Shown here: piece by piece, positions 1 to 64,000 of the stretch | Layout of the letters: each line of letters opens with the position of its first letter | Numbering within the stretch: position 1 is the stretch's first letter | Assembly: GCA_015272395.1 (NCBI GenBank) | Contig: JACYLQ010000035.1 | Span: 1 to 64,000, forward strand | Length of the DNA: 64,000 bases | Reading direction: 5' to 3' | Origin: Calothrix sp. C42_A2020_038 | Lineage (GTDB): Bacteria > Cyanobacteriota > Cyanobacteriia > Cyanobacteriales > Nostocaceae | Position numbers and translations under genes: made by a program | The notes under the pieces: generated by a model | Database searches by the model: none | The model's input: only the letters and a program-made list of their open reading frames with translations | What the model was told of the DNA's origin: nothing

Positions 1-63
1 CTGGGTTAGTTGGGGGTGTAACTGGGTTAGTTGGGGGTGTAACTGGGTTAGTTGGTGGAGTAA
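1..63. repeat. 21-bp tandem repeat in adhesin gene
   Basis: Three units of 21 bp start at positions 1, 22 and 43; the first two are identical and the third differs at two bases. On the minus strand each encodes TPPTNPV, a Thr/Pro-rich stalk. The array is cut by the window edge, so its true copy number is unknown. Confidence 0.9.
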
Positions 64-3000
64 CTGGCTCAGTGGGAATACTATTGTTAGTTAAGTTGAA
101 ATTGACATTTGCGCTGCCACTACCCAAAGTTACTGTATAACTACCAGCAACTGCATTCGCTCTGACAGGAATTGATACCTGTCCGTTAGTATCTGCTGTA
201 ACAGTGTTAGCTGTGGTGGTAGCAGAGGCGCCACTATTTGGTGCAGTAAAGGTGATGCTGGCACCAGGTACAATATTGCCGTATTGGTCTTTGACTACTG
301 CTTGTAGGTTATTAGCAAAGTTTGTATCAACAGTTGTACTTTGGTTGTTACCTCCAGTAACAGTGATATTAGCAGATGCATCTGGGGTATTGGTTAAGTT
401 GAAACTAACAGGAATAACACCGTTACCAACACCCAAACTGACTTGATAACCACCAGCAATTGTGTTTGCTTTGACTCCTATTGATATTTCACCCTTGGAA
501 TCTGTAGTCAAAGTGCTACTTGTAGTTGCAGAGGCGCCACTACTGGGTGCGGTGAAGGTAATGGTGGCGCCAGGTATTACATTACCGTATTGGTCTTTAA
601 CTAATGCTTGCAAGTTGTTTGCAAAGTTAGTATTAACGGTAGTAGTTTGATTGTTGCCTCCTGTTGACGTGATGCTGGCGGGTACATCCGGAATGTTGGT
701 GAGAGTCAAGTCAGTGGGTGCAGTTCCATCATTACTATCAACACTAACAGTGTAACTACCAGCAACTGTATTTGCAGTAGCTGTAACACTAGCTTGACCA
801 GAGACATCAATAGTTGCAGTGTTAGTGCCAAGGGTCGCAGTGGCGCCTGTAGTACCCGTGGAAACGGAGTAATTAACAACACCACCTGCAACTGGTTCAC
901 CGGGTGTATTCGCAGTCACAGTTACAGTTACTGGGTAGCTGGTGTTAACAACATTACTTTGATTATTTCCAGTGATTGTAAATCCACCGGATTCAAAGGC
1001 GCCGATATCTGTTTCACCAACTCTGTTAAATCCTCGCTGGTCATCAGTGGTGACACTGGGGTCTCCTGTGTTGATAGCAGGACTTCCTGGTAAAAGAGCC
1101 ATTGTTTGGGTGGCGCCACCATAGTTACCGAGGTTAGTAAGTAAAGGGTTAATCGGATTTGCAGCTGTACCTACCTGGTTGCCATTAACTCCATTGTTGA
1201 TGCCCGACATACCAGTCCCATCTCCAATCAGATTGTACTTACTTTCATTGACAAACCCAGATATATCAGGATTGGCGCCATAGTTTTTCGCAACAATGGA
1301 GTTATTTAATATGAAGTAACCACTAAAGTGACGAATACCTCCACCTTCTTGGTTATATGTGGTGTTATCGCTGATAGTACTATTGCTTACTCTCAAAAAA
1401 TTGAAGTTATAAATACCACCACCACTATTATTTGCTGTGTTTCCACTGATAGTGCTGTTATTAACATCCAATATGCCAAAGTTAATGATACCACCACCAC
1501 CGAAGTTTAGTGCATCATTGTCGTTAATGGTGCTGTTATTTACCATTAATGTGCCAGTATTTAAAATACCGCCACCGTCGTGCTGTGATGTATTGTCGTT
1601 GATGGTACTGCTATTTACTGTTAATGTACCAGTATTAAAAATCCCACCACCACCACCGTTACCAAGGTTCTGTGCTAAGTTATTGCTGATAATAGTGTGA
1701 TTGAGAGTGAGGTTGCCGTTGTTGTTAATACCACCTCCATTTAATGAATTACCCTCTGTAACTTTTAAATATTGCAGTGTAACAGTGGCTCCAGAACCGA
1801 TATTGAAAACTTGTGAAGCATTTCTACCACTGATAGTCAGGTGATTAATACCTGTACCATCAACGGTAGTATTCCCAGAAGTAAAGGTTAATGGGCTGCC
1901 TGCTAATGTAATAATAGCTGGGTTAAAAAAGGCGCCAGTATTGTCAAACCGGATTGTGGTAGTAGGAATACTTTGGGTTGAGTTAACGTTTTGATTCGCA
2001 AAATTGACAGCCGCGCGCAGACTTCCCATATTATTGTTATCAGTGGTATTCGTCACAAGATAAGAGGAAGTCGCTTCGTAAGCTCCAATATCAATACGGG
2101 AACCAGAGTTAATACCATTTGCTCCCCTTTGTCCACCTCGTTGGTCAGTGCTGATAGTACTATCAGGGTCTCCAGCATCGATAGCTGGACTACCTGCCAG
2201 TAATGCGTGGGTCTGGGTGGCGCCACCATTATTTGCTAGAGGACCAAGGAGAGGGTTAACACCGACTTGGTTGCCGTTGGCGCCGTTACTAATACCCGTC
2301 ATGCCACTGGCATTACCGATGATATTATAGCTGCTGCTTGGGTTTATTGAACCGGAAAATATAAAAATATCAGGATTGGCATTTCTGTTTTGTGCCACAA
2401 TCGAATTGTTCAACGTCAAGTTACCAGCGTTGAAAATACCATTACCTTGCCTAATACCAGTAGTGATGTTATCAGTAATGGTACTATTCTCGACTGTCAA
2501 ATTTCCTATGTTGTAAAAGCCGCCACCACCGTCTCCTTTAGCTGTGTTACCACTAATGGTGCTGTTTGATAAAGTAAAAGTGCCACCATTAGTAATAGCA
2601 CCACCACCACCTTCGGCTGTGTTACCACTGACAGTGCTATTTAATAGAGTGAAGGTTGCATTACTGTTATTGTTAATAGCACCACCATAACCTAATGTAT
2701 AATTTCCGGTTATGGCGCTGTTGCCTACTGTTAAATTACCTGAGTTATTGATACCACTACTACTGGTAGATTGTCCTTTAGTAATGGTTAGGTTTTGGAG
2801 TGTAGCAGTTACTCCGGAAGCGACATTAAACACTTGGTTCGCATTATTGCCACTCAAGACAGTGCTACCAGCACCTACACCATTAATCGTAACGTTCTTA
2901 TTGACATTAACAGTACCACCTTCATAAGTACCCGCACCTAGATTAATTATGCGACTTCCTGCGACATTGCCAATAGCGTTGATAGCATTGTTAATCGAAC

Positions 3001-4630
3001 TGGTATTAGGATTAGTTTCTGGGTTGACTTGATTCAAGTTAAAGTTCAACCCACCTGTACTATTCATATTGATGGTGGCGCCATTTGGTTGGAAAAACAT
3101 GCGTCCTGTCAGAGTTAGGGATGCATTTCCTCCACCAGTCTGGTTAATTGAATCTTTTAAATAAATATCACCGAAACCACCAGAACCAGAAGCAGTTTGA
3201 ATTTCTACGTTAGTTCCACCATCAAGTGTATTTTCAATGGTTGCAGGAGAAATATTATTTCCTGTTCCACCATTAACAATGTCGATGTCAGTTGGGTCAA
3301 GCAACCAAGTACCTGCTTGTCCATTAACTGCACTAGCGTTTACTTTTCCACCTGTCACATCCAATGTCTTCTTGCCAGAAGTTTCTACCAAACCACCATT
3401 ACCGCCATTGGCGCCACCACGTGCGGTGATACTTCCAGCAAACTTGGTGTTATTATCTGCCCAGACAATTACCTTACCACCATTACCGTTATTGACTGCA
3501 TCAGCATTAATTACAGTATCGCTACTAACAACGGTATCTTTTGCGTTTGGAACAGTTCCTTTACCTTGATAGTCTCCTCCAACCAAAACTGTACCACCAC
3601 CATTGGAACCAGAAGCATTTATATTTGCAGCAATTAAACCAACTTTTTCACCAAGGATGTTGATTTTTCCAGCAGGAGCAGATACTTGACCACTAACAAT
3701 ATTTGTACCTTGTTCGGCTGGAATTGAAGTTCCTGAACTTGTTAGCATAACTGCACCATTCTCTACAGTCATGCCAGTGGCGCCGATAGCATCACCACCT
3801 GTGAGTAATTGTGGTAATGATAATGGTGTGTTTGGTGTGTTAACAGCAGTCTTGGTTTCGACTGGTAAATCTAAACTTAGTAAACTACCTTCGCTACTGA
3901 CTCGGACTAGCTTTTCTCCTGGTACTGCGGTAATTGTAATATTGCCACCTGGAGCAGAAATTTTTCCGGTGTTAACTACCGTTCCACCAAGTAAAGTTAA
4001 ACTTTGTCCTTCGTTAACTGCTAAGTTTCCAGCATTAACGATACTACCCAATTGATTACTAGTGAATGCAAAACTAGAGGGATTACCGTTAAGCTGTGTA
4101 TAGTTGTTATTTCCAACTGCGTTGAACCATAGGTTATTGCCAAAGCCAATACCGTTAGCAGTTGTAGCATTGAACGCCGCAGGTACATTCAAGCTAGCAT
4201 TTTGACCAAAGACAATACCTGCTGGGTTCATCAGGTAAAGGTTTGAGGCGCCACTGCTTACCTGTATCAAACCGTTAATATAAGACGCATCACCACCAAC
4301 AACCCGACCTAAGATGTTCTGAATATTCGGAGTTGAAAGGAAGTTAGCGATTTGTCCACTGTTGAGACCAAATTTTTGAAAGCTATGGAATAGATTGGCG
4401 CCGGACTGAGTACCACCAGTTATATTAAATTGATTTGGGTTACTCCCGTTCGTATTGACAATAGTACCCGTACCATCATTCGCTGGAGTAATTACTTGTG
4501 CTAATACCTGATGCGGACCAAAGCTTAGAAATAAAACCAGCCAAACAAGTAATACTTTAGCTTTGCTCTTAACTTTAGTTTTGACTTTATTTTTGATTTT
4601 TCTCAACTTCGCGCGGTGGGAAATATGCAT
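1..4630 (-). CDS. Giant secreted adhesin with filamentous haemagglutinin N-terminal domain (partial, 3' end outside window)
   Basis: 1543 codons are visible from the ATG at 4630 to the window edge, and the frame is the same at both ends. Residues 1-44 form a long basic signal peptide ending in QVLA. Residues about 46-170 match the two-partner-secretion (haemagglutination activity) domain, including the diagnostic MNPAGIVFGQNASLNV near residue 134. A long parallel beta-helix region follows, with many NNGG/STIS-type rungs and two module ends reading DIGAYE (near residue 847) and DIGAFES (near 1207). From about residue 1210 there are three invasin-like Ig domains (for example DQYGNIVPGASITF), then a Thr/Pro linker of TPPTNPV repeats. 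This is known as a cell-surface or secreted adhesin architecture in cyanobacteria; the family is exported by a TpsB/Omp85 partner, which is not seen here. Function in attachment or filament contact is inferred. Confidence 0.88.
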   Translation of the reverse strand, partial: MHISHRAKLRKIKNKVKTKVKSKAKVLLVWLVLFLSFGPHQVLAQVITPANDGTGTIVNTNGSNPNQFNITGGTQSGANLFHSFQKFGLNSGQIANFLSTPNIQNILGRVVGGDASYINGLIQVSSGASNLYLMNPAGIVFGQNASLNVPAAFNATTANGIGFGNNLWFNAVGNNNYTQLNGNPSSFAFTSNQLGSIVNAGNLAVNEGQSLTLLGGTVVNTGKISAPGGNITITAVPGEKLVRVSSEGSLLSLDLPVETKTAVNTPNTPLSLPQLLTGGDAIGATGMTVENGAVMLTSSGTSIPAEQGTNIVSGQVSAPAGKINILGEKVGLIAANINASGSNGGGTVLVGGDYQGKGTVPNAKDTVVSSDTVINADAVNNGNGGKVIVWADNNTKFAGSITARGGANGGNGGLVETSGKKTLDVTGGKVNASAVNGQAGTWLLDPTDIDIVNGGTGNNISPATIENTLDGGTNVEIQTASGSGGFGDIYLKDSINQTGGGNASLTLTGRMFFQPNGATINMNSTGGLNFNLNQVNPETNPNTSSINNAINAIGNVAGSRIINLGAGTYEGGTVNVNKNVTINGVGAGSTVLSGNNANQVFNVASGVTATLQNLTITKGQSTSSSGINNSGNLTVGNSAITGNYTLGYGGAINNNSNATFTLLNSTVSGNTAEGGGGAITNGGTFTLSNSTISGNTAKGDGGGGFYNIGNLTVENSTITDNITTGIRQGNGIFNAGNLTLNNSIVAQNRNANPDIFIFSGSINPSSSYNIIGNASGMTGISNGANGNQVGVNPLLGPLANNGGATQTHALLAGSPAIDAGDPDSTISTDQRGGQRGANGINSGSRIDIGAYEATSSYLVTNTTDNNNMGSLRAAVNFANQNVNSTQSIPTTTIRFDNTGAFFNPAIITLAGSPLTFTSGNTTVDGTGINHLTISGRNASQVFNIGSGATVTLQYLKVTEGNSLNGGGINNNGNLTLNHTIISNNLAQNLGNGGGGGIFNTGTLTVNSSTINDNTSQHDGGGILNTGTLMVNNSTINDNDALNFGGGGIINFGILDVNNSTISGNTANNSGGGIYNFNFLRVSNSTISDNTTYNQEGGGIRHFSGYFILNNSIVAKNYGANPDISGFVNESKYNLIGDGTGMSGINNGVNGNQVGTAANPINPLLTNLGNYGGATQTMALLPGSPAINTGDPSVTTDDQRGFNRVGETDIGAFESGGFTITGNNQSNVVNTSYPVTVTVTANTPGEPVAGGVVNYSVSTGTTGATATLGTNTATIDVSGQASVTATANTVAGSYTVSVDSNDGTAPTDLTLTNIPDVPASITSTGGNNQTTTVNTNFANNLQALVKDQYGNVIPGATITFTAPSSGASATTSSTLTTDSKGEISIGVKANTIAGGYQVSLGVGNGVIPVSFNLTNTPDASANITVTGGNNQSTTVDTNFANNLQAVVKDQYGNIVPGASITFTAPNSGASATTTANTVTADTNGQVSIPVRANAVAGSYTVTLGSGSANVNFNLTNNSIPTEPVTPPTNPVTPPTNPVTPPTNP

Positions 4631-5098
4631 ATTTTGTAATTTATTTTACTTTTAATTTACACATGAGCGCAAATATAGAAATACTGAACTGTGATACTTT
4701 TGACCTGATGAAAATCTACTCTACTCTACATGAGTGCTATATACTTACAGTATTTTTTTTCACCAGATTTATAAACCTTTAGATAAGTCGTTATTAAGGT
4801 TTTTAGAGGTTTGTAATGTATTTAACCAATTAGCATAACTTGTCCATCTGCGTGTCGGAGAGGAATGGCAAGAAAAAAGGCACTCGTGCAGATGACAGAG
4901 GGCACTTGTGGGCGATCTGTGCAGCAAGAAGAATATTTTGCCCCTCTCCGTGTCGGAGAGGGGTTTCCGGGTAAATGAGGTACGCGCGCAACGGGTTGTT
5001 TTGAGGGGTCAGCTAGCTGAGTGCTTACCAATTTGAGCTTAACAAGGGCGCCAGTTTTCTCTCAATATTTTCTCTCAATATAAATAAGCTCGCATTGT
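4631..5098. other. Intergenic region upstream of adhesin, with palindromic repeats
   Basis: No supported gene. The first part upstream of the adhesin ATG at 4630 is very AT-rich and must hold its promoter, but no clear boxes can be assigned. The right part holds dispersed palindromes: 4941-4963 and a partial relative around 4849-4863 sharing GTGTCGGAGAGG. Near 5056-5082 the phrase TTTTCTCTCAATA is repeated in tandem. A 69-codon minus frame across 4822-5031 is only a translation of the repeat. Confidence 0.6.
4941..4963. repeat. Perfect palindrome of a dispersed cyanobacterial repeat
   Basis: CCCCTCTCCG and CGGAGAGGGG form a perfect 10-bp stem with a TGT loop. The surrounding sequence, read on the minus strand, gives the NPSPTRRGA phrase that recurs as a spurious peptide in many cyanobacterial annotations, so this is a dispersed element rather than a gene. 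Confidence 0.75.
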
Positions 5099-5329: not shown

Positions 5330-5380
5330 TTACTTGTCATAACTGTTTCTGAATAAAACTAGCGTTAGTAAAAATTGAAC

Positions 5381-10302: not shown

Positions 10303-11644
10303 AGTATCCTCTCTGATTACTTATAGGTGATGACTGAATAAATTGAGGTAGTCTAAAAAGAAATAACAGTGTGATTATTAATGGTAGACAGGCGTAAAAT
10401 TCAAATATAATAATTGTGGCTGCTGTATTAATAAAATATATTAAAAAACCTACTTTATCTTGTCTTAGCCCTCCGGAGAAATAATTTAAATTATAATTTT
10501 GTATATAGTATTTTTTTCGAGATGAATTATTGATAAGTATGCAGATAATACATATAAAAATAAAAACGCCTAAAAATCCAAACTGAGTTAATATAGATGT
10601 CAATGTAGAATCAGCAAGAAAGTATTCGTTATTGGCGCCTGTATTCTTATTTAATATCTGAACTAAGTTAGAACCGTAACCCAGATATTTGCCAAAGATT
10701 AATGAGAGAGTATCAGTTTCACTAAAATAAGATTTTAAAATATCTACTCTACCATCACCTGAAGCACTCTGAGTACGACCGCTTAAAGAATTTACATGCG
10801 ATAATGCAGATGTTGATATTATCAAGAATAAGGGGATACCAAAGAAACAGATTAAAAGTTTGTCTTTAATGATTGGATATAATTTACTTAGTTTTGTATA
10901 TAAATTTATAAAAATAAGTAGTAAAATTATTAATAAACCTGTTCTGGAACCAGAAAATAAAATTCCAACAGAATAGAGTAAAAGTATTAACCATCGAAAT
11001 TTATGCGGCGGTAGAACAGATAAATTTAGATAAAATACTAGTGCTAAAAATAGCGCTAACGTATTAGGTCCAATGAAAGTGCCAACAGAGCGAGCTAAAC
11101 CAGAACTAAACCAGCCTATACCATTTTGATTTACCCCGGCTTGGCGCTGCAAATAAGCATAGTATACTTGAACTATAGATAAAAAGTTTGTAGATTCAAA
11201 AACCCATCGTAAATAATAAGGATGTAAATGCCGATGGCAAAACACAAATACAGCAACAGCAGCAATGAAAGGTCGTAGGCAAGTGAAAACTAGTGTAATA
11301 CTAAAACTGGTAAAGATACACCGAGCTATAGCGATGGCAAGGCTGACAAGGCAGAAAGAGTAACAAATTATTAAACCTCGATTTTCCTTTAAATTTAATT
11401 TAGGGGCGGTTGAGGGAAACCATAAACTTAGGAATAGAAGTAGAAATGCAAATATATCTTTCAGTACCTTTGCCCAACCTGGTACAAGTTCTATGTAGCT
11501 TTGTTTTTGGAAGTAGTAAGGATCCCAGTTTTCGTAGAGAGCATGATTTGCTACTGACCAATAGTTAAGAGTTGAAGAAGCAACTATTGCAAATAAAAGT
11601 GTGTGTAAGAAAATTGAAACTCTAACCGAGGGTGTTCGTAACAT
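10265..11644 (-). CDS. O-antigen polymerase/ligase family membrane protein (Wzy-like)
   Basis: 459 aa from the ATG at 11644; an in-frame start 48 bp further upstream would overlap the previous gene. About ten hydrophobic segments run through the protein. The Wzy_C-type signature region is present: GTFIGPNTLALFLAL, ILFSGSRTGLLI and a large periplasmic loop with SGRTQSASGDGRVDIL. Family members polymerise or ligate lipid-linked glycans on the periplasmic side of the inner membrane. With Wzc at 25367 this suggests a Wzy-dependent pathway. The start lies 2 bp after the preceding stop, indicating coupling. Polymerase versus ligase cannot be decided from sequence. Confidence 0.83.
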   Translation of the reverse strand: MLRTPSVRVSIFLHTLLFAIVASSTLNYWSVANHALYENWDPYYFQKQSYIELVPGWAKVLKDIFAFLLLFLSLWFPSTAPKLNLKENRGLIICYSFCLVSLAIAIARCIFTSFSITLVFTCLRPFIAAVAVFVFCHRHLHPYYLRWVFESTNFLSIVQVYYAYLQRQAGVNQNGIGWFSSGLARSVGTFIGPNTLALFLALVFYLNLSVLPPHKFRWLILLLYSVGILFSGSRTGLLIILLLIFINLYTKLSKLYPIIKDKLLICFFGIPLFLIISTSALSHVNSLSGRTQSASGDGRVDILKSYFSETDTLSLIFGKYLGYGSNLVQILNKNTGANNEYFLADSTLTSILTQFGFLGVFIFICIICILINNSSRKKYYIQNYNLNYFSGGLRQDKVGFLIYFINTAATIIIFEFYACLPLIITLLFLFRLPQFIQSSPISNQRGYFETHTISPPLDT

Positions 11645-11646
11645 GT

Positions 11647-12774
11647 TCAGCCTTGTAGATAAGGAAGAAGCGTCTGAGTAACGGCGAGCCAACTTAGATG
11701 ACTGTGGTAGTAATGCTGAGTTTCTTGGATAGCATTGTGTAAGTTAGCTCGTCTTGAAATAGTATTCAGTACTTGTTCTTGGAAAACCGAATAATCTTTA
11801 TCAGGAGCTAAAAATAAACTAGGTAACTTATACAAAAAGCTGTCAGTCAGTCTGCCATAAGTTCCGACTACAGGTAAACCATGTTCTAAAGCCGACATTA
11901 GAGAGGTTCGTTTTGCACTAACCCCAAATTCATGGGGCATTAAAAGTAAATCGGAAATTTGTAAGTAATGAGATAGTTCGTTTGAAGTTAAATAGCCAGG
12001 GCGAAGAACAGGATTTTTGAATGGAACCGTGACAGATTTAGCTTCTCCCAATAGTAACCAAGTAACGGCATAGTCTGAATTGTGAAGATAATTATCTAAA
12101 CTAGCAACCCAATCTTGGCGAATTGAAGCTAGACAGCCAAACAAGAGTAAGACAATCTGTTTCGGAGCAATGTCAATTTTTTGGCGTAATGCGTGCTTTT
12201 CTTCTACTGATAAAAGTTGGGGTGAGATGTTATTTGGTATAGGTAAATAGTGAATTTTTTCAGAGCTATTGCTAAAGCGTTTTATCTGTTTTAGATAAAG
12301 CTCAGAGCCGCAAAAGATATGATGACTACTCTGGACTAACTTATACAAAATATATTGTTGGAATAAGCCATTGACCCAAGTACCAGGGTATTTAAGGAAC
12401 CAGTAATAAGTTTCATGAGCAATTAATAAGGTTTGAAATTTCTTAGAGCATTCTTGCCAGAATTTAATTAAATTTAAGTTGTATTCTTTTGAAGTATATA
12501 ATCGAGGCGTATACTGCAAAATAACAGTTTTCACATTTTCTGCTTCAAGTAGATTGAGAAGTTTTCGACAACCAGTTTTTGACCAATTATCTACATAAGG
12601 TATAATTGTTACAGGTTCGGAAGAGCTTTTACAGCTTTTCTCAACAATTAGGTCTAGCTCTAAGCCACAATGCTTTTTCAAATATGTAGATAGGTTAATT
12701 GAATAATCACCTACTCCACATACATGAAGACTTGTTTTCGCTGTTATTATGACAGTTTGTGTTAGTTTATGCAT
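11647..12774 (-). CDS. GT-B glycosyltransferase (GT4-like, divergent)
   Basis: 375 aa from the ATG at 12774, preferred over a TTG two codons upstream. The N-terminus VIITAKTSLHVCGVGDYSINLSTYL has the GVGDYS glycine-rich loop of GT4 enzymes that begin with an inverted Rossmann half. The C-terminal half has VLLLFGCLASIRQDW and a modified donor motif FGVSAKRTSLMSALEHGLPVV, where the usual E-x7-E pair is altered, so activity is less certain. The following polymerase gene is tightly coupled. A decayed glycosyltransferase tail (12817-12903) lies just upstream. Confidence 0.78.
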   Translation of the reverse strand: MHKLTQTVIITAKTSLHVCGVGDYSINLSTYLKKHCGLELDLIVEKSCKSSSEPVTIIPYVDNWSKTGCRKLLNLLEAENVKTVILQYTPRLYTSKEYNLNLIKFWQECSKKFQTLLIAHETYYWFLKYPGTWVNGLFQQYILYKLVQSSHHIFCGSELYLKQIKRFSNSSEKIHYLPIPNNISPQLLSVEEKHALRQKIDIAPKQIVLLLFGCLASIRQDWVASLDNYLHNSDYAVTWLLLGEAKSVTVPFKNPVLRPGYLTSNELSHYLQISDLLLMPHEFGVSAKRTSLMSALEHGLPVVGTYGRLTDSFLYKLPSLFLAPDKDYSVFQEQVLNTISRRANLHNAIQETQHYYHSHLSWLAVTQTLLPYLQG

Positions 12775-12816
12775 TTGCAAAAAATTAAAATTGAGAAATA
12801 TAGTGAATTGAATTTA

Positions 12817-12903
12817 CTACGATTTTTTTGAAATATTTGCTACTGCACTTAAGTAATCCTTAGCTATAGCATTCAAAGTGAATTTTTGATAACAATACGT
12901 AAG
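12817..12903 (-). pseudogene. C-terminal glycosyltransferase scrap
   Basis: A short minus frame without start codon reads YQKFTLNAIAKDYLSAVA before a TAG stop at 12817-12819. This is the usual GT4 ending (compare the living paralogue ending SWEVIARNLASVYS at 6142). It suggests that a glycosyltransferase gene was deleted between the genes at 12774 and 12964. The evidence is one short motif. Confidence 0.5.
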
Positions 12904-12963
12904 CTAAGATGCTTACAGGTTAAAAAGCTGCTTGTACATTTTTAAATTGATTAGAATTAAAAC

Positions 12964-13932
12964 TTACAGCGCAGTTTTTAGGCGATGAATTAAACGATAT
13001 ATTTGACAACCTATAACTTTTGGTAACAGTGTACAAAAATTTTGTACTAAACCATTAACACGTTTTCGTTGATATTCAGGGTAGTACTCGCTACAAAATA
13101 AATCTCTTGCTTGTTTATGCTGGTTTTTTAATAGAGAACGGCTAACTGCGTTGACCATTAATTGTGATAGTAATTCTTGTTTATAAGGCTCTACTTTAGA
13201 TTTAACAGAAATTGGTAGTAAATAATTTACCAAACTCTCAGTACGAAGTCCTAATGTTGTGGCTGATTGTTCATGTATACGGTATTCAGATAAGTATTGA
13301 GGAACAAATAAGAAGTCTCCTTCCTCGAAGGACAAACGAATAAAAAATTCTATTTCCGGAGTATTTAAATCTTCTTTAAAACGTAGTCGTTGAACATCTT
13401 TGGTACGAATTAAAGAAGCAGACATCGGGATAGAATTTTGCCATACCCATTTTTCTGGTTCAATTACTTTGCCATTAGGAATTAAATCGCGATGGTAGCG
13501 CTCAGTCCACTCGTAGCTTTTTTGTTCCAAGCGTTTGCCCTGACTATTGATAATATAGTGGTTAGAAAATATAACTAGAGTATCTGAGTTAGCCACAGAC
13601 ATCAAAGTTTCGACAAAGTTAGGTAAAAGACGGTCATCATCACCAATAATGATTAAATATTCTCCTTTTGCAGCATCAGCTAACGCATTCCAGTTACCAG
13701 CTAAACCAAGATTATGAGAATTAAATTGATAACGAACTTTGGAGTTTTGGCTCACACACATTTGACTCCAAACTTGGATAGATTGGTCCAAACCATTTGG
13801 AGTCGGGTCTTGACCAATAATGACCTCAATATGAGGATAGGTTTGTGCAAGTGCTGATGCTACTGCTTCTTTTAAGTAGTTTAGGCGGTTATAAGTAGGT
13901 ATTGCAATCGTAATTAATGTACTCATAAACAT
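12964..13932 (-). CDS. Glycosyltransferase family 2 (GT-A fold)
   Basis: 322 aa; ATG at 13932, with a second ATG two codons later that is equally possible. The N-terminal catalytic domain is classic GT2: TIAIPTYNRLNYLKEAVASAL, acidic GDDD metal/nucleotide motif (EYLIIIGDDDRLLP) and NLGLAGNWN. The C-terminal third is helical with basic residues and may associate with the membrane. It should transfer a sugar from a nucleotide donor to the lipid-linked glycan. A MITE-like element lies immediately upstream of it (13960-14091). Confidence 0.88.
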   Translation of the reverse strand: MFMSTLITIAIPTYNRLNYLKEAVASALAQTYPHIEVIIGQDPTPNGLDQSIQVWSQMCVSQNSKVRYQFNSHNLGLAGNWNALADAAKGEYLIIIGDDDRLLPNFVETLMSVANSDTLVIFSNHYIINSQGKRLEQKSYEWTERYHRDLIPNGKVIEPEKWVWQNSIPMSASLIRTKDVQRLRFKEDLNTPEIEFFIRLSFEEGDFLFVPQYLSEYRIHEQSATTLGLRTESLVNYLLPISVKSKVEPYKQELLSQLMVNAVSRSLLKNQHKQARDLFCSEYYPEYQRKRVNGLVQNFCTLLPKVIGCQIYRLIHRLKTAL

Positions 13933-13959
13933 TTTAATAAAGCTATATTATTCTATACA

Positions 13960-14091
13960 ATTAAGTAAGTAGGCACAATTAAACCGAACTACGTGAACTG
14001 CTGTAAAGCACCAAAAACGCTTTGAATATAAGCTTTTAAGGGATTTACATTTCTTAATCTAGTTGTGTTTTTTAGCACCCACCTACTTAAT
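13960..14091. mobile_element. MITE-like element with imperfect terminal inverted repeats
   Basis: The 132-bp AT-rich gap between a methyltransferase and a GT2 gene begins ATTAAGTAAGTAGGC and ends with the complement of ATTAAGTAGGTGGGT. The termini align over about 24 bp with a handful of mismatches. There is no coding capacity. Length, terminal repeats and intergenic position suit a non-autonomous transposable element; no transposase or flanking duplication was identified. Confidence 0.5.
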
Positions 14092-14101
14092 GTTTCTAAA
14101 A

Positions 14102-14746
14102 TTATGAGTTTAAACGACAAGAAAAAATAAATTGAAATCCAAATAATCCGGGAAATTTTTGGACAGCTTTTTGATCAATAAAAGAAGTAATAAAAGATGG
14201 TATAAACTTACGAAACATTGGCAAAGGAAAGCTCCCTTCTGACTGTGATGTAACTATTGTATAGCCACTATTTTCTAAAAGTTCACGTGCTGTTTCCCAA
14301 TCAAAGAACCGAAAATGAGTCATATCCATAAGTCCACCTTCAGTGTATCTAAATCTTCCTGCTAAAAACTTTAAGCGTTGTTTAAAATGTAGAACATTAG
14401 GTAGAGCGACGATTATAATTGAGTCAGCAGTAAGATATTCATGAAGTTGTTTAAGTAGTTCTGATGGTTGATACAAATGCTCTAAAACGTGACTACAAAT
14501 AATACAATCAAACTTACCAAGTGAGTCAATATCAAAGCTATTTAGATTGTGAATATATACTTTATCTAAATATTTATTAGCTAAAGCTGCTTCTATTTCT
14601 GAGTAAGTAATTCCAATTACTTCACAATTAAAATCTTCCTTAATTTTCCTACCTAGATTTCCAGAACCACATCCGATATCAAGAACTCGTTTCACAGTTT
14701 TTGGAACTTGTGAAAGGACAGGTGCATTAATCGAACCGTATATCAT
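14102..14746 (-). CDS. Class I SAM-dependent methyltransferase
   Basis: 214 aa from the ATG at 14746, which follows an AAGG sequence and avoids overlap with the upstream gene; a longer non-ATG frame adds 36 unlikely residues. SAM-binding motif I is VLDIGCGSGNLGRKI, followed by IICSHVLEHL (motif IV-like) and a WHXY-type C-terminus with GYTIVTSQSEGSFPLP. It most likely methylates a sugar hydroxyl or terminates a glycan chain, given its position between glycosyltransferases. The acceptor cannot be told. Confidence 0.85.
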   Translation of the reverse strand: MIYGSINAPVLSQVPKTVKRVLDIGCGSGNLGRKIKEDFNCEVIGITYSEIEAALANKYLDKVYIHNLNSFDIDSLGKFDCIICSHVLEHLYQPSELLKQLHEYLTADSIIIVALPNVLHFKQRLKFLAGRFRYTEGGLMDMTHFRFFDWETARELLENSGYTIVTSQSEGSFPLPMFRKFIPSFITSFIDQKAVQKFPGLFGFQFIFSCRLNS

Positions 14747-14831
14747 ACTAAAAACCTTGTTATGTAAGTGATAATAGACACAAATACTCAAATTTATATA
14801 AATAATATATAAAGTTTTATTTAGTGTAATT

Positions 14832-15935
14832 TCAATTTTTTTTACATAAATCAATAATAATTAAATTTATGTAAGACTTAGCAATTTCTGACCATGTGAA
14901 TATTTTATAATAATCCTCAAAATTTTGAGAGTTTATTGAAAAATTAGTCATTAATTGCAATGGCGGTGGAAATGGTTTGAGTGTCTCTTTAAAGAAAGAC
15001 TGTAAATCTTGCACTCCGCCCACAGGTGTTGCATAAACTTGCATTCCAGACTCTAGCATCTCATTCAATACAAGTCCCCACCCTTCTACCTTGCTTGTAA
15101 ATAAACCTACATCATGATTAGCAAGCAAAGTGTAAAGCTGGCTTCTCTCAAATGAATGTACAATTTTTATTACACCTGCTCGAATTAGTTCAATAGGAAC
15201 ATCTTTCTCAGCCTCAGTACCACAGCCTGCAATTGTAAAAGTATCTTGAGGGTGTGAAGCTGTCCTTTTTTTAATAAAATTAAGCATCTGAGTTGTACCC
15301 TTATGAGAAACCCAACGTCCAATCCATAGAAATTTGATACTACCTTGCGAATGATTTTGCCTACGATGTAACCGGATTTGCGTTAGAGCTTCCTGTTCTT
15401 CTTTAGAAAGTGCATTGACGTAGTAGATTAATTTACTCCTCCACCAAGGAAACCATTTCTTCATCCATTGAAGTTCTAAACTACCCAAACAAAGAATGTA
15501 TTTTGCTCTTTTCCAACCTTGCAGTATTAAACTTACTTGAAACAATGAATACAAATTGCTAAGGGGAATACGAACAATGTCTTTAATATTTTTGATTTTA
15601 CAGTTTGTAAAACTTTCTGCTATGTATAAAATGTCAGGCTGAACACTACGAGCTACTACTAAAGCTGATTGGCTAACTCGTTGGGTAATAAATATTGGAG
15701 GAATGTCAATAATATCGAACGGTTTCTGACTTTCGATAAATGCATCCACTTTAGATCGCATTTGCTGTGTACTTTGCCACCATTTTGTTTCAGGAGGCAA
15801 AGGAAGAGGAGACCATAAAGTAACATCATGTCCCTGCTCTTGGAATACTTTTGCTAGATTAATTGCCATCTGACTAGCACCATATTTTGGAGAGAGGGGA
15901 GCGTGAGTAATAATGAGGATACGTAATGACTGCAA
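14832..15935 (-). CDS. Glycosyltransferase family 4
   Basis: 367 aa. The start is a TTG at 15935 with AAGGAG six bases upstream, followed directly by the GT4 opening LRILIITHAPLSPKYGASQM. Donor half motifs are FLWIGRWVSHKGTTQML and TSKVEGWGLVLNEMLESG. It belongs to the continuous minus-strand cluster, 18 bp downstream of the next glycosyltransferase. Role: addition of a sugar to the repeating unit, inferred from family and context. Confidence 0.88.
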   Translation of the reverse strand: MQSLRILIITHAPLSPKYGASQMAINLAKVFQEQGHDVTLWSPLPLPPETKWWQSTQQMRSKVDAFIESQKPFDIIDIPPIFITQRVSQSALVVARSVQPDILYIAESFTNCKIKNIKDIVRIPLSNLYSLFQVSLILQGWKRAKYILCLGSLELQWMKKWFPWWRSKLIYYVNALSKEEQEALTQIRLHRRQNHSQGSIKFLWIGRWVSHKGTTQMLNFIKKRTASHPQDTFTIAGCGTEAEKDVPIELIRAGVIKIVHSFERSQLYTLLANHDVGLFTSKVEGWGLVLNEMLESGMQVYATPVGGVQDLQSFFKETLKPFPPPLQLMTNFSINSQNFEDYYKIFTWSEIAKSYINLIIIDLCKKN

Positions 15936-15953
15936 CTGGCACTCCTTGAAAAA

Positions 15954-17051
15954 CTATTCAACGTTTTTACCTTGATAGATACTCAAATTTTTTTGAACTA
16001 CTGTTGACCAACTAAGTGATTGTATCCAACGACGGCAGCGAGTTTGGTATTCTTTATACTCCGATGCCGATAAATCAATTAGTTGACGGATAGCAGCAGC
16101 AATAGCTTCACCTGAATTTTGCTTGACTACAAATCCAGTTTGACTATCATCTACAAACTCATGCATGGCACCTGCATCTGTACAAATAGCAGGGGTTCCA
16201 CAAGCTTGAGATTCGAGCAATGTAAAACCCATTAATTCTGGGACTGGAGTATATTCTCCATAACAGGTGGTATGGACAGAGGGTAAAATTGTTACCATTG
16301 CTGTACGGTACTCATAGAGTAGCTGCTCGTCGTCAGCATCGTGAACAAACTCTACATTTAGTCCGTTTGCCTGATTTTTTAGGTCTTGGTAATATCTTTC
16401 GCTATAAGCCCGACCTACAATCTTGAGTTTGTAATCTGCCTGGTTTAACAAGCGCAAGGCATCTATTAGGTAATTAATACCCTTGTGAGGCAAGATTCGA
16501 CCAACGAAAAGGATTTTTTTTTCTTTTGGCAAAGAGGATTCTGGGCAGAATTTATTTGTATCAATACCCCCTTTGATTAAAACAGCTTTTTTTTGTAATT
16601 CACTAGGAAGAAAATCTAAACCGTACTGAGAATAAGCAATTGCATTTTGGTAGCCCCAGAAAATAGGTAGTTTTTGATTTAAGAATAGACTTCCACCTCC
16701 ACCATAATCTGTAACAAAGACACGTTTACCAACTAAAGATGCTGTTAGACAAGCGAGGTCAGAAATTAAGGTATTTATATGATGAATATGAACTACATCT
16801 GCATTCCAAATTGAACCAAGATACTTAAAGCATAAAGGATTCAGCTTATTACCATGTATTAAGTGTTTAACACTATACGTTTCTATTTTTAAATTACCTT
16901 GCTTGTAAGATTTTCGTTTAGAAGAGAAACTTACAAGAGTGGTATCCACAAACTTGGACATCCATAATGCTAACTCTGTCGGGTAACGTTCGCCACCACC
17001 GATTATAGATGATTCATCAAAGTAAGTAGGCGTGATATGAACAACTTTCAT
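15954..17051 (-). CDS. Glycosyltransferase family 4
   Basis: 365 aa from the ATG at 17051. The N-terminus KVVHITPTYFDESSIIGGGERYPTE carries the GGGER acceptor-side loop, and the C-terminal half has ILFVGRILPHKGINYLIDAL and the donor motif GFTLLESQACGTPAIC. Both are textbook GT4. It is 20 bp downstream of a methyltransferase gene in the same direction. Its specificity is unknown. Confidence 0.9.
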   Translation of the reverse strand: MKVVHITPTYFDESSIIGGGERYPTELALWMSKFVDTTLVSFSSKRKSYKQGNLKIETYSVKHLIHGNKLNPLCFKYLGSIWNADVVHIHHINTLISDLACLTASLVGKRVFVTDYGGGGSLFLNQKLPIFWGYQNAIAYSQYGLDFLPSELQKKAVLIKGGIDTNKFCPESSLPKEKKILFVGRILPHKGINYLIDALRLLNQADYKLKIVGRAYSERYYQDLKNQANGLNVEFVHDADDEQLLYEYRTAMVTILPSVHTTCYGEYTPVPELMGFTLLESQACGTPAICTDAGAMHEFVDDSQTGFVVKQNSGEAIAAAIRQLIDLSASEYKEYQTRCRRWIQSLSWSTVVQKNLSIYQGKNVE

Positions 17052-17071
17052 AATAAAAAATAATTACACCA

Positions 17072-17611
17072 TTACTTGATAGTTTCTAACTCAAAGTAGA
17101 GAAACCAAGCTGGAAATATCCATACCCATCTTTGTTCGTAAGATTGTGGATACTTATTCGCTAATCTACTTATGATTGAGCGATTGAATCTACCTCCTTG
17201 AAATTGTATATGACGCTTTTTAATTCTGTATCTAGCTGTCGAATAGTATGCCAAGGTGTGGTCTTGAGAAAAGTAATCAAATGAGAAATAGCTCAAATGA
17301 TGTTTATGAGTTGGATCAATATATGAATTTGCACAAGAGAAATGAGGTGTTGTAATTTTTATAATTCCACCTGGTTGGACAATTCTATAAAATTCTTCCA
17401 GAGTTCTAGGAATATTTTCTACGTGTTCAATAACATCGAAACACTCAATTTCTGAAAAACTATCATTATCAAATGGGTAGGGAAACTGTCCTAAATCCCA
17501 TACAACATCAGGATTAACATCAGTAGAAATATCGAGTCGAACTAAACCTGGTTCGCTTTGCCGCTCACCACAACCGACAGATAGTACTAAATTACTTTTT
17601 TTTATAATCAT
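17072..17611 (-). CDS. Class I SAM-dependent methyltransferase (methyltransferase type 11-like)
   Basis: 179 aa, ATG at 17611. The protein is short: motif I is LVLSVGCGERQSEPGLVRLD, followed by SEIECFDVIEHVENIPRTLEEFYRI and the PGGIIKITTPHFS strand. The C-terminal part contains HKHHLSYFSFDYF. The Cys-Gly-Glu form of motif I is seen in many small polysaccharide-cluster methyltransferases. It lies between two glycosyltransferases, so sugar or chain-terminus methylation is the simplest role. Confidence 0.8.
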   Translation of the reverse strand: MIIKKSNLVLSVGCGERQSEPGLVRLDISTDVNPDVVWDLGQFPYPFDNDSFSEIECFDVIEHVENIPRTLEEFYRIVQPGGIIKITTPHFSCANSYIDPTHKHHLSYFSFDYFSQDHTLAYYSTARYRIKKRHIQFQGGRFNRSIISRLANKYPQSYEQRWVWIFPAWFLYFELETIK

Positions 17612-17646
17612 AGTTACAGAGGAACAAAAAGGTAATCTGAGCTTTT

Positions 17647-18696
17647 TTATGAATGTTTAGCCATTTTCTTAATGATTTGGTATGCTTCATGACTAATTAA
17701 TGCTTTTATGAACATCTTCCAAAATAGTAACCAACTTATTAATGTTGGTCTCAAGATTACTGTTCTCAGAATGGTGTTCAATGTTAACGTAGTAGTATCA
17801 CTAATATAAGGGCTAATTGCAAGAAAATCATTACATGATATCTGAAATAAAAATTGGCGCCATATATTATAATTTTTTTGAGCTTCTAAGATAGCTACTC
17901 TATAAAGTTCAGCATAAGTTACTGCATCTGAACTCATAGTTTTATTATCGCCATGATATTTGAACTTAACCCAGGTTTGTTTCACCCAAATAGAACGAGG
18001 TGATTGGCTCAGTACTCTCAGAAACAGTTGATAATCCATTGTACCACGCAACGTTTTATCTAGAGGAAAAGCACGGTCTGTAAGTTGCTTGTCAATGAAT
18101 ACAGCAGGTTGGGGCAAAGGTACAAATGACCAGAATTTTAAATAGTCCTCAAATTTCTGAGGAATAGAGTAGCCATTAAATTTCTGGCTAATTTGTATGG
18201 GATTGTTGCTACTATCAACATTAAGGCATTCCCCCACGATAAGCTGATGTCCTTGCTTGTATAATTCACTGACTTGTTTTAAACAGGTTGAATTAATGTA
18301 CGCATCATCAGCATTTAGCCAAACAAAGAGATTTCCTGTACAGTGCTGGTAGCCTTTATTAATTGCATCGGTTTGCCCTTCGTCTAGTTCGCTTACCGAG
18401 TAGGATAAATACTCTTCATATTTCTGAATAATTTCAATAGTATTATCAGTCGAGCCACCATCAATAATAATATATTCTAAATTAGGATACCCTTGCAAAA
18501 GTACAGAGCGAATTGTTTCTTCAATAAAACGTCCGTAATTATAACTAGGTGTTACTATACTGATTTTAGGAAATTCTGAACCGTCAACCATTTGACTAGG
18601 CAAAGGTTCTATCTCCTCTGTCCAAGGCCAACCTGTTTTACCTTCGGGTGGTGGGGGCAAATCTTTTAGAGTCAAAGCAGTGTTAATTGATCGCAT
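17647..18696 (-). CDS. Glycosyltransferase family 2
   Basis: 349 aa, ATG at 18696. After about 45 residues of Pro-rich leader comes the GT2 core: ISIVTPSYNYGRFIEETIRSVLLQ, IIDGGSTDNTIEI, and NADDAY as the DxD-type metal motif. The C-terminal part has two hydrophobic stretches (LISWLLFWKMFIKAL) that may anchor it to the membrane. It sits 8 bp upstream-adjacent to the next GT4 gene. The WNADD-type GT2 enzymes often use UDP-sugars; that is inference. Confidence 0.88.
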   Translation of the reverse strand: MRSINTALTLKDLPPPPEGKTGWPWTEEIEPLPSQMVDGSEFPKISIVTPSYNYGRFIEETIRSVLLQGYPNLEYIIIDGGSTDNTIEIIQKYEEYLSYSVSELDEGQTDAINKGYQHCTGNLFVWLNADDAYINSTCLKQVSELYKQGHQLIVGECLNVDSSNNPIQISQKFNGYSIPQKFEDYLKFWSFVPLPQPAVFIDKQLTDRAFPLDKTLRGTMDYQLFLRVLSQSPRSIWVKQTWVKFKYHGDNKTMSSDAVTYAELYRVAILEAQKNYNIWRQFLFQISCNDFLAISPYISDTTTLTLNTILRTVILRPTLISWLLFWKMFIKALISHEAYQIIKKMAKHS

Positions 18697-40275: not shown

Positions 40276-41850
40276 TTAGTTCCGATTACTGCTTTCCGGT
40301 TCAGCAATAATAGGTACACCGTTGTTCAGGTTGAGAATACCAGAAACAACAATTTTTTCTCCAGCTTTCAATCCTTCGATAACTTGATAATTATTACCTT
40401 CAATCGCCCCGAGCTTGACAGGTTTTTGCGCTGCTACTAAAGTTGGCATTCCTGGTTTCGCTTGTTCTGGCGCCTGAGCAACAAACACAAAAGTCTCTCC
40501 ACCTAAACGAGAGACTGCTGTGACTGGAATCAAAACACCTGGACGTTCATCCCAAATCACTCTAGCTTTTACTAGTTGACGATTAAGCAACTGCCCACTA
40601 GTATTCGCAAAGCTGGCTTTAGCTAAAATTGTCTGCGAATTTACATTGGCTTCTGGAGAAATAAAAGTTATTCTTCCGATCGCAGTGGGTTGCCCTTGCG
40701 TATCCAACATTTCTACAGGCAATCCCGCACGTAATTTCTTGGCTTGGTTAATTGGGATGGATAGGTTTAATTCTAAAGAATCGTTTTTTGTGATCGTGGT
40801 AAGTTCGCTGCCTTTACTGACAAACTCTCCTAATTTCACCGGAATATTGCCGACAATACCAGTAAACGGAGCCAGAACGTTAGTATATTGCAGTTTCACT
40901 TGTGCAGCCTTGACTTGAGCTGCTGCTTCAGTCACTTGCGAACGTGCCTGGGCAATCTCTTCTTGGCGTGGACCATTTTGTAATTGCTCTAAATTTTGTT
41001 TTTCTTGTTCAACAACAGCAACTAGCTCATCAATATTAGAACGTCTGCTTTTGCGAACTTGCTCTAGCCGACGCTGGGCTTCTTGTAACCTAGCTCTAGC
41101 ACTACGCTCCTCTTTAAGAAACCCTTCTAGCTGATCTTGAGAAACCGCACCCTCCTTTCTTAGTTGTTCATATCGCTTGGCGCGCGACTGAGCCAGTTCT
41201 AAATCTGATTTTGCCGCTTCAATTTGAGCTTCGGCTTGAGCTATTTCCTCTGGAAGCGCTCCGGCTTTGGCATTGCTGAGGCGAGCTTGCGCTTGATTTA
41301 ACCTAGCTCTAGCTTGGGCAATCTCCTCTTGACGAGTACCCGCTTTGAGTTCAGCAAGTCGTGCTTGAGTACGTTCTAATGCCGCTTTCGCCTGTAATAG
41401 CTGGGCTTTGGCATCGTCACTTTGCAGGCGAATTATAACTTGTCCAACTTGAACGCGATCGCCTTCCTTAACTGCAATCTGTGTAACTCGCCCATCAATA
41501 TCAGGCTTCAATACTACTGAACGTGGAGCTTCTAAGGAGCCAACAAACTGGGAAGTTTCTTGCAAATTTCCAGTTTCTACAGCGGCTAACTTCACAGGAA
41601 CACCCATCGGTTTACCAGCAGGAGTTCCAGCAGAACCTGTATTGCTAGCAGAACTATTCCACCAGCGCCAACCAAAGCCGAGACCCACAAGTAATAGAAT
41701 GCTTCCTATCACCAGCCAAGGCTTTTTACCAAATTTATGTGTTTTCTCTAAATGTATTTGGGGCTGTTCTGCTTCTGCCTGATGTATATCTACAGCAGAC
41801 TTTTCTTTATCGAAAGGAACAGAAGAATCGGGAAACTTAGAATCTGACAT
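40276..41850 (-). CDS. RND efflux periplasmic adaptor (membrane fusion protein)
   Basis: 524 aa, ATG at 41850. One membrane anchor (PWLVIGSILLLVGLGFGWRW, about 45-64) is followed by the lipoyl half (VVLKPDIDGRVTQIAVKEGDRV), an unusually long helical hairpin containing repeated LNQAQARLSNAKAGALPEEI-type units, and the second lipoyl half with the beta-barrel (VLAPFTGIVGNIPVKLGEFV). The repeated RQEEIAQARARL/LPEEIAQAEAQI units suggest that the hairpin grew by internal duplication. It bridges the pump to an outer-membrane channel. The pump starts 36 bp downstream. Confidence 0.93.
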   Translation of the reverse strand: MSDSKFPDSSVPFDKEKSAVDIHQAEAEQPQIHLEKTHKFGKKPWLVIGSILLLVGLGFGWRWWNSSASNTGSAGTPAGKPMGVPVKLAAVETGNLQETSQFVGSLEAPRSVVLKPDIDGRVTQIAVKEGDRVQVGQVIIRLQSDDAKAQLLQAKAALERTQARLAELKAGTRQEEIAQARARLNQAQARLSNAKAGALPEEIAQAEAQIEAAKSDLELAQSRAKRYEQLRKEGAVSQDQLEGFLKEERSARARLQEAQRRLEQVRKSRRSNIDELVAVVEQEKQNLEQLQNGPRQEEIAQARSQVTEAAAQVKAAQVKLQYTNVLAPFTGIVGNIPVKLGEFVSKGSELTTITKNDSLELNLSIPINQAKKLRAGLPVEMLDTQGQPTAIGRITFISPEANVNSQTILAKASFANTSGQLLNRQLVKARVIWDERPGVLIPVTAVSRLGGETFVFVAQAPEQAKPGMPTLVAAQKPVKLGAIEGNNYQVIEGLKAGEKIVVSGILNLNNGVPIIAEPESSNRN

Positions 41851-51171: not shown

Positions 51172-51540
51172 TCAAAACGCTTGATGTAATATAATGCGGT
51201 TGCCTTCGGGGTCGTAAGCATATATTTCTCGACCGTGAGATGCGGTAGTAATGACGCCAGGTGGAGGATAGCCTAAATTTGTAAGGAGTACTATCGCCTC
51301 TTCTAAGTTATTTACTTCTAAACACAAACTCATTGTACTCTGAGTCGCGTTTTTAAATTCCCCCTCATTTGTGGTTTTTGGTTTGAAAATTCCTAGTATA
51401 CTACCTGGTAACTGAAATTCTGCATATATATTAGGAATGTAGTTGCTAGCTTCTCCAACTAAACTAGTATAAAATGTAACTAACTTTTCTAAATTAATCG
51501 ATGCAATAGTTACAAGTGAATTTTGCAGTTGTAAAACCAT
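51172..51540 (-). CDS. VOC-superfamily (glyoxalase/bleomycin resistance fold) protein
   Basis: 122 aa, ATG at 51540. One betaalphabetabetabeta pair is visible: SLVTIASINLEKLVTFYTSL at the start, then MSLCLEVNNLEEAIVLLTNLG and GREIYAYDPEGNRIILHQ at the end. The DPEGNRI phrase with its metal-ligand Glu is typical. Substrate unknown; many such proteins bind small hydrophobic or electrophilic compounds. Confidence 0.85.
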   Translation of the reverse strand: MVLQLQNSLVTIASINLEKLVTFYTSLVGEASNYIPNIYAEFQLPGSILGIFKPKTTNEGEFKNATQSTMSLCLEVNNLEEAIVLLTNLGYPPPGVITTASHGREIYAYDPEGNRIILHQAF

Positions 51541-54717: not shown

Positions 54718-54776
54718 GGTGCGTGACGCTATAAGTCTTATCGCTATGTTGAAATTTTTTGAGGGCGTCACGCACC
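54718..54776. repeat. 12-bp inverted repeat downstream of the aldolase gene
   Basis: GGTGCGTGACGC and GCGTCACGCACC are perfect inverted repeats separated by 35 bases. The first arm starts 8 bp after the aldolase stop. It may act as a terminator or be a short dispersed element; the arm sequence TCACGCACCCT also occurs at 28255-28265. Confidence 0.65.
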
Positions 54777-60171: not shown

Positions 60172-60178
60172 CCGACCG

Positions 60179-60206
60179 ATTCTCGACTTCTTAAAAAGTC
60201 GGGAAT
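60179..60206. terminator. Bidirectional terminator hairpin
   Basis: ATTCTCGACTT and AAGTCGGGAAT pair over 11 bp (one G-T) between the convergent WD40 and histidine kinase genes. The sequence is nearly that of the terminator at 42822-42849. Confidence 0.75.
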
Positions 60207-60213
60207 TGAAATT

Positions 60214-63039: not shown

Positions 63040-63128
63040 AACAGTTCGACTAAGATTATGTCTTTGCTTTTAGTTTGCCCACAAAAGCTAAAAACATAAC
63101 ATCATACATAACATCATATTTGTTCAAA

Positions 63129-64000
63129 CTAATTAATCGGAATTTCAATAATGAACTCTGTTCCTTGTCCAAATTCAGAGTTGACTGTAATATTACCACA
63201 ATGTTTTTCCATCACAATTTGTCTTACAATTGCTAAACCCAATCCTGTTCCTTTACCAACTTGTTTAGTAGTGTATAAATAATTAAACATTTTATCTTTA
63301 ACTTCTGATATCATACCAATACCATTATCTTTAAAATAAATTAAAACTGATTTACTGTCTGCTGATAATTCTGTTTTGATATAAATCAAGTTGGAATTAA
63401 CTTCAATCTCTTGAAAAGTTAATCCGACATTACGTTCTTCTAGGGCATCGATAGCATTAGCTAATATATTCATAAATACTTGATTCATTTGCCCAGCATA
63501 ACAATTAATTTTAGGTATTTGACCATACTCTTTTATCACTTTAATTTCTGGTCTAATGTCCGAAGCTTTGAGTCGATGTTTCAAAATTAAAAGAGTGCTA
63601 TCGATACCTGTATGAATATCAAAACAAACAGGCAACTTATCATCAGAGCGAGAAAATGTTCGTAAACTTGTACTAATATCTTTAATCCGGTGAATACCTG
63701 CTTGCATTGACTCAATTACTTTTGGTAAATCTTCGCGTAAATACTCAAGCTCAATTGCATCTATTTCATTTTGAATCTCTATAAATGCTTGAGGATAGTA
63801 ATGTTGGTAACAGTCAATAAGTTTTAATAAATCTTTAATATATACTTCTGCGTGGCTAATATTATTACTAATAAAGCTAACTGGATTATTAATTTCATGG
63901 GCAATCCCCGCAACAAGTTGTCCTAGTGCTGACATTTTTTCGCTTTGAATAAGTTGGAGTTGTGATGTTTGTAGTTCAAATGCTTTTTGTTTGACTTGAT
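63129..64000 (-). CDS. Histidine kinase, C-terminal part (5' end outside window)
   Basis: The frame runs past the internal ATG at 63935 to the window edge, giving at least 290 residues. A coiled coil (KAFELQTSQLQLIQSEKM) leads into the phospho-acceptor box ALGQLVAGIAHEINNPVSFI, and the ATP-binding domain has NILANAIDALEE and GKGTGLGLAIVRQIV. This HisKA/HATPase arrangement with the AGIAHEINNP box is common in cyanobacterial sensor kinases; N-terminal GAF or PAS sensors are expected outside the window. It probably functions with the hybrid kinase just downstream. Confidence 0.88.
   Translation of the reverse strand, partial: QVKQKAFELQTSQLQLIQSEKMSALGQLVAGIAHEINNPVSFISNNISHAEVYIKDLLKLIDCYQHYYPQAFIEIQNEIDAIELEYLREDLPKVIESMQAGIHRIKDISTSLRTFSRSDDKLPVCFDIHTGIDSTLLILKHRLKASDIRPEIKVIKEYGQIPKINCYAGQMNQVFMNILANAIDALEERNVGLTFQEIEVNSNLIYIKTELSADSKSVLIYFKDNGIGMISEVKDKMFNYLYTTKQVGKGTGLGLAIVRQIVMEKHCGNITVNSEFGQGTEFIIEIPIN

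Follow-up and report, generated by a model that had tools for sequence, protein, structure and literature searches.

Which word occupies the place of the cyanobacterial palindrome HIP1 (GCGATCGC) in a stretch of DNA that is nearly free of it, and what keeps that word there? The question is raised by 64,000 nt of the genome of Calothrix sp. C42_A2020_038, analysed over their whole length and called the window below. According to the initial annotation, the window contains about 80 copies of GGCGCC, where composition predicts about 4, and a single HIP1, and GGCGCC could have taken over the role of HIP1. The kind of element is already known from a member of the same genus: GGCGCC was described by Elhai in 2015 as an alternate highly iterated palindrome (HIP) in Calothrix PCC 7103, as well as in 19 kb from Calothrix D253, and was tied to two GrCGyC methyltransferases (PMC4390886). 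Among the matches listed for open-licence literature on the hexamer or on cyanobacterial HIP, there was no further paper on GGCGCC as a HIP. What is new here is the clade-wide state, an orphan enzyme in seven of seven genomes, a loss spectrum centred on the central cytosine and conservation that is limited to the hexamer.

GGCGCC and HIP1 in the window, the genome and the genus

In the window we counted 82 GGCGCC sites, as compared to a mean of 4.22 and a maximum of 9 in 100 dinucleotide-preserving shuffles. The expectation from composition, 3.3, is close to the annotated value, and also the 43.5 sites expected from an order-5 Markov model (the maximal order) are exceeded. The annotated HIP1 copy is indeed the only one (Table 1); at least one HIP1 was also present in 20 of the 100 shuffles. 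In agreement with the reported spread over coding and intergenic DNA and over both gene strands, 75 sites are located inside ORFs of at least 100 aa (19 in plus-strand and 56 in minus-strand genes, counting the ORF that is open at the window start) and 7 outside. GRCGYC has 84 sites in the window, 82 of which are GGCGCC. The variance/mean ratio of GGCGCC in the window is 2.27 because of an empty stretch, which is probably a later acquisition. It lies within genes that resemble those for glycosyltransferases and polysaccharide assembly, as judged by eye from the translations and not by family search, and the absence of GGCGCC may flag DNA of recent acquisition. The ORF open at the window edge looks by eye like that of a filamentous-haemagglutinin-type surface protein.

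Table 1. Location of the words, stretches and genes referred to in the text. Coordinates are those of the window unless a contig is given.
Feature	Position	Strand	Remarks
GGCGCC sites, 82	1..64000		first 227-232, last 60410-60415; uneven; word count
HIP1 (GCGATCGC), sole copy in the window	41455..41462	+	word count
GACGCC, one of just two GRCGYC sites other than GGCGCC	51253..51258	+	word count
GGCGTC, the second of these two sites	54764..54769	+	word count
GGCGCC-free stretch, 7.2 kb	10640..17855		GC 34.2%; word count
ORF open at the window edge	2..4630	-	15 GGCGCC in a single frame (3.2 per kb); word count
P0001, m5C methyltransferase, 327 aa	G000:C32:50744-51724	+	PF00145, 225 bits; outside the window

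The whole genome of C42_A2020_038 (6,532,080 bases in 50 contigs) contains 7475 GGCGCC and two copies of the reversed word used as a control, while HIP1 is present 147 times and its reversed control 37 times, a fourfold difference. With 147 copies in 6.53 Mb the genome does not belong to those in which HIP1 is over-represented. In a 595-kb sample of this genome, 728 GGCGCC were found, as compared to 32.8 expected from composition, 113.9 from an order-3 Markov model and 347.7 from an order-4 model, the own 5-mers of which are dominated by GGCGCC. With an excess of 22 times composition and 6.4 times the order-3 expectation, it is the most over-represented palindromic hexamer, followed by CGCGCG with 9.6 times composition (O/M3 2.65). 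The words TTCGAA, CCATGG, GAGCTC and CGTACG are nearly absent from this sample, in which 13 HIP1 were found against 3.1 expected, far below the level of HIP1 genomes. Almost all GRCGYC sites of the sample (728 of 740) are GGCGCC; GACGCC, GGCGTC and GACGTC are all depleted. Thus, the count is not near the Markov expectation at order 3 or 4, and HIP1 does not return to normal density elsewhere in the genome, the two outcomes that the initial annotation had named as speaking against its proposal.

We then considered 145 genomes of the family, drawn evenly from a larger group. Seven of them belong to the genus of the window (Calothrix PCC 7103 (G115), PCC 7716, NIES-4105, HK-06 and FI2-JRJ7, Dulcicalothrix desertica PCC 7102, and C42_A2020_038) and 138 do not. 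GGCGCC is present 7475-20380 times in each of the seven and 0-1053 times in the others, and the genome with 1053 copies also has 1270 of the reversed control. HIP1 numbers are 31-163 in the seven (reversed control 37-75), whereas 137 of the 138 others have 535 or more; the sole exception has 30 HIP1 in a genome of 3.2 Mb with a completeness of 88%. With genome sizes rounded, the density of GGCGCC is 1.14 per kb in C42_A2020_038 and 1.51-1.71 per kb in the other six, which corresponds to the approximately 1000-2000 per Mb of a GC-rich palindrome acting as an alternate HIP, and HIP1 is, as in such systems, low or nearly absent. The switch from HIP1 to GGCGCC is a clade trait rather than a sporadic one.

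The suggested takeover of the HIP1 role is supported in so far as, throughout the genus, the abundance of GGCGCC coincides exactly with the lack of HIP1. The positions of HIP1, however, were not reused: only 2 of 53 aligned HIP1 sites of relatives, which come from up to seven outgroup genomes and are not independent of each other, have a GGCGCC within 30 nt, and an in-place conversion was rejected. The genus is poor in GATC (O/E 0.22 in C42_A2020_038 and 0.09 in 100 kb of three genus relatives), whereas the O/E of 0.84 in 148 kb of HIP1 outgroups indicates hardly any depletion; this fits the idea of Elhai that GATC restriction removed HIP1. In genomes of other genera with little HIP1, G022 (535 copies in 10.7 Mb) and G083 (990 in 9.5 Mb), the samples contain 5% and 12% of the expected GATC. 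A replacing word was not found in samples of G022 (92 kb), G083 (80 kb) and G082 (48 kb). Since G022 and G083 are low in HIP1 and GATC and show no new word, the loss of HIP1 is not by itself enough to produce one.

Conservation, spacing and loss of single sites

Between C42_A2020_038 and PCC 7103, GGCGCC was kept at 96 of 126 sites, whereas the numbers for the remaining all-GC hexamers and GC-rich palindromes were 111 of 426 and 36 of 214, respectively, with a baseline of 32% identical hexamers in the alignments. At conserved Gly-Ala pairs, GGC GCC was retained in 54 of 66 cases, while the same codons elsewhere predict a proportion of 0.18 (0.45 x 0.39). The closer pair PCC 7103/PCC 7716 gave 367 of 406 for GGCGCC against 707 of 954. 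Fourfold sites flanking GGCGCC evolve at the ordinary rate, with an identity of 0.860 at a distance of 3-9 nt and of 0.867-0.869 at 300-1200 nt; in pairs with C42_A2020_038 the bin of 18-36 nt was somewhat higher (0.64-0.68) and the nearest bin was not. The protection stops at the edge of the hexamer, and the sites are conserved far beyond the neutral expectation.

A map of the spacing, as proposed in the initial annotation, revealed a nearly random arrangement. In 400 kb each of PCC 7103 and PCC 7716, the variance/mean ratio of 5-kb bins was 0.91 and 1.04, close to Poisson, and an even spacing was not seen. The gaps deviate slightly from an exponential distribution (p = 0.01 and 0.04), because pairs closer than about 100 nt are scarce; gaps below 50 nt are at 0.43 and 0.42 of expectation, a value as low as that of 4-5% of the control words (227 and 249).

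Orthologous genes represented in four or more members of the genus contained 40 sites that all members had retained and another 40 that a single member had lost. Sixteen of the 40 losses fall in C42_A2020_038, whose density is also the lowest; an ongoing loss of sites may be the reason, or a position on the longest branch. One-base changes account for 26 losses: 19 of these led to GGTGCC/GGCACC and five were transitions at the outer pair, with none at the second pair. In line with this, wobble C>T differences within GGCGCC between PCC 7103 and PCC 7716, counted unpolarised and with sites conserved in both species entered in both directions, were found at 43 of 462 central and 6 of 448 outer positions (p = 3e-8). 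At other wobble cytosines a following G has little effect (0.148 and 0.141; 0.153 and 0.134), and the central value of 9.3% is below the 14.2% seen there (1229 of 8665), so that an elevation exists only in comparison with the outer C. The contrast is weak in comparisons with C42_A2020_038 (central 9/69 against outer 4/65 for PCC 7103, and 6/47 against 5/46 and 3/43 against 2/42), and it is absent in frame 2 of the polarised set (3 and 4 synonymous changes). GGCGCC is lost mainly via C-to-T at the central cytosine, the change expected of a methylated C, and this spectrum suggests methylation at that position.

Conservation of this kind has to be weighed against the model published for PCC 7103, a ratchet in which mismatch repair directed by G-methyl-C retains mutations creating GGCGCC until there is about one site per kb, with the sites as functionless by-products (PMC4390886). 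The density near 1 per kb agrees with it, and so does the flood of GGCGCC next to the depletion of GACGCC, GGCGTC and GACGTC, which two rounds of the ratchet predict. However, a two-state calculation, rough because it simplifies strongly and pools counts, predicts 15.4 outer C>T changes for re-creation alone and 5.3 for a bias on both loss and gain, while 6 were observed. Further, if the ratchet ceased to act less than 1 kb from an existing site, the sites should be spaced out, which the near-Poisson bins do not show. The persistence of the trait in a genus of seven species and the single full enzyme copy in C42_A2020_038 and PCC 7102 also argue against it. The flat flanks are a poor test of the ratchet, as hardly any base is more than 1 kb away from a site. 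Altogether we regard the ratchet as a rather unlikely explanation; a selection-like force acting per site fits better than re-creation alone.

A methyltransferase without its endonuclease

The initial annotation further proposed to look for a solitary methyltransferase with specificity for GGCGCC. An enzyme with a matching predicted site is present throughout the genus, but its recognition region is of the GRCGYC type, and an enzyme specific for GGCGCC was not recognised. P0001 (Table 1) has full-length orthologues with 80-90% identity in the six other species. In six of the seven genomes the locus has the same preceding gene (RuBisCO-large-like by Pfam) and the same set of downstream genes; HK-06 differs. 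Its recognition region around the TL motif, RR[AG]IFSIDEPSPTIR, matches that of relatives from endonuclease-bearing genomes. For M.BsaHI, recognition of GRCGYC and methylation of its central C are described in PMC2413257; the comparison with the G/A position of M.BsaHI relied on the text of this paper. P0001 thus resembles a GRCGYC-type m5C methyltransferase with a predicted site that includes GGCGCC, and by sequence a candidate for the methyltransferase that belongs to an alternate HIP is encoded in seven of seven genomes.

The cognate endonuclease (PF09519, HindVP/BsaHI type) was found in none of the seven genus genomes, which makes the enzyme an orphan in the genus. Within the family, PF09519 is present in 32 of 145 genomes, in 31 above the cut-off and in several interrupted. 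Outside the genus, 27 of 34 carriers of the methyltransferase also have an endonuclease match; the carriers (34 of the methyltransferase, 31 of the endonuclease) were picked by eye from listings, partial methyltransferase matches (G003, G034, G069, G077, G118 and G144) were excluded, and endonuclease matches with stops or in pieces were scored as present. The median number of GGCGCC in these genomes is 4 with enzyme and endonuclease (n = 27), 144 with the enzyme alone (range 3-277, n = 7) and 25 with neither (n = 100). The range in the seven genomes with the enzyme alone shows that an orphan enzyme is insufficient for the flood. Since C42_A2020_038 and PCC 7102 each have one full P0001-type copy, the state can be maintained without a second one.

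Compared to the BsaHI/HgiDI/HindVP restriction-modification systems as presented in PMC2413257, the methyltransferase family and the recognition region are alike, whereas the genus has no PF09519 and its site is enriched instead of avoided. As a side observation, 11 of the 12 GGCGCC in the genome of Anabaena cylindrica PCC 7122 (G132) lie within 14 kb of plasmid NC_019774.1 (contig 4:80227-94009; L246, L247), adjoining a transposon and with three HIP1 in the surrounding 27.6 kb; this is possibly DNA from a GGCGCC-rich donor. PCC 7122 harbours the same methyltransferase type together with the endonuclease, which is perhaps AcyI.

It is improbable that GGCGCC is read by another methyltransferase of the genus instead of the BsaHI-type one. 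Candidates exist, namely a PF01555 enzyme (~330 aa), a PF02086 enzyme (~351 aa) and an m5C enzyme of the L006 type in all seven genomes and one of the L007 type in six. However, P0001 represents the only type similar to a family whose known site contains GGCGCC (PMC2413257), and genomes with this enzyme plus the endonuclease are, as given above, very poor in the word. The L006 type was rejected as the switch: it is also present, with 63-75% identity, in 93 of the 138 other family genomes (counted by eye), which have HIP1.

Two more m5C enzymes concern HIP1 rather than GGCGCC. The L013 type was rejected as the lost HIP1 enzyme. Its nearly full-length relatives with 75-80% identity are present in just 18 of the 138 other genomes (a count by eye; in three of them the match contains a stop), and it is therefore not a general CGATCG enzyme. 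Judged from its reading frames, it is decaying in the genus: it is open in HK-06, NIES-4105 and PCC 7102, carries a stop in PCC 7103, is cut short in PCC 7716 and reduced to a fragment in FI2-JRJ7, and has no close match in C42_A2020_038. The L310-type enzyme of HIP1 genomes (three loci) may be the CGATCG enzyme; the m5C enzymes of the genus with which it was compared include no close relative (41% locally at best).

The words that differ from GGCGCC by one base were also counted. Eight of the nine neighbour pairs are below the composition expectation in the C42_A2020_038 sample and in the relatives; GGTGCC/GGCACC is the sole pair above it, with 167 copies in C42_A2020_038 (O/E 1.63) and 74 in the relatives (O/E 1.98), as compared to 11 in the HIP1 outgroup (O/E 0.34). 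This excess is weak evidence alone, because GGTGCC is at the order-3 Markov expectation (1.04 and 1.05) and because the outgroup is low in GGYRCC words generally. Enrichment of a word by Vsr repair has been proposed for E. coli, and a similar very-short-patch T:G repair turning GGTGCC/GGCACC into GGCGCC would act at the very position that changes, but we consider it highly improbable here since these words are undepleted and none of eight clean single-species gains of GGCGCC arose from them.

GGCGCC as an alternate HIP

What was observed directly is the switch throughout the genus, the orphan enzyme, the hexamer-limited conservation and the loss spectrum, and from these we infer methylation in vivo, P0001 as its agent, the order of events and the nature of the force that holds the sites. 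In the account that we favour, with a probability of roughly 0.6, GGCGCC is an alternate HIP. HIP1 would have been lost in the ancestor of the genus, and a BsaHI/HgiDI-type m5C methyltransferase with the predicted site GRCGYC would have been retained without its restriction enzyme as a resident orphan. This enzyme would methylate the central cytosine of GGCGCC, as suggested by its relative M.BsaHI and by the mutation spectrum. Fresh positions would then have been sown with GGCGCC up to the present density, and a motif-specific, selection-like force, either selection or a repair bias towards the intact motif, would hold each site against its steady conversion to GGTGCC/GGCACC by deamination. 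Besides the central C>T value below that of other wobble cytosines, the weak contrast in comparisons with C42_A2020_038, the level of GGTGCC by the order-3 model and the orphan enzymes without a flood, two findings count against this account: GACGCC and GGCGTC are depleted although they are predicted substrates of P0001 too, and the PF01555-type and PF02086-type enzymes are likewise present in the whole genus.

The system of PCC 7103 described by Elhai agrees with ours in the hexamer, the loss of HIP1, the genus and the GrCGyC-type methyltransferase. It differs in that the present state comprises seven of seven genomes, conservation per site, losses at the central C and one enzyme copy in C42_A2020_038, not two. 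In the same paper alternate HIPs were argued to be sporadic and not to persist as clades, and a second enzyme copy was considered as maybe critical (PMC4390886); our data bear on both points. HIP1 of most cyanobacteria is likewise a GC-rich palindrome with about one copy per kb, and it was linked to a resident methyltransferase (PMC4390886), but the word, the enzyme and the positions are different.

A genus that has lost HIP1 and gained another palindrome provides a natural swap experiment for the role of HIP1. It is tempting to speculate, although we would give this reading somewhat less than even chances, that the genus has re-founded the HIP system on a new word, that the marks of an orphan restriction methyltransferase are each under selection (with a scaled strength near 4 by a rough estimate), and that a methylated GC palindrome about once per kb is what matters, and not the sequence of HIP1. 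Since conservation per site and deamination scars are readable from genomes alone, the idea is testable in other lineages. The features common to both words, namely density, palindromy and probably G-methyl-C, may be what matters.
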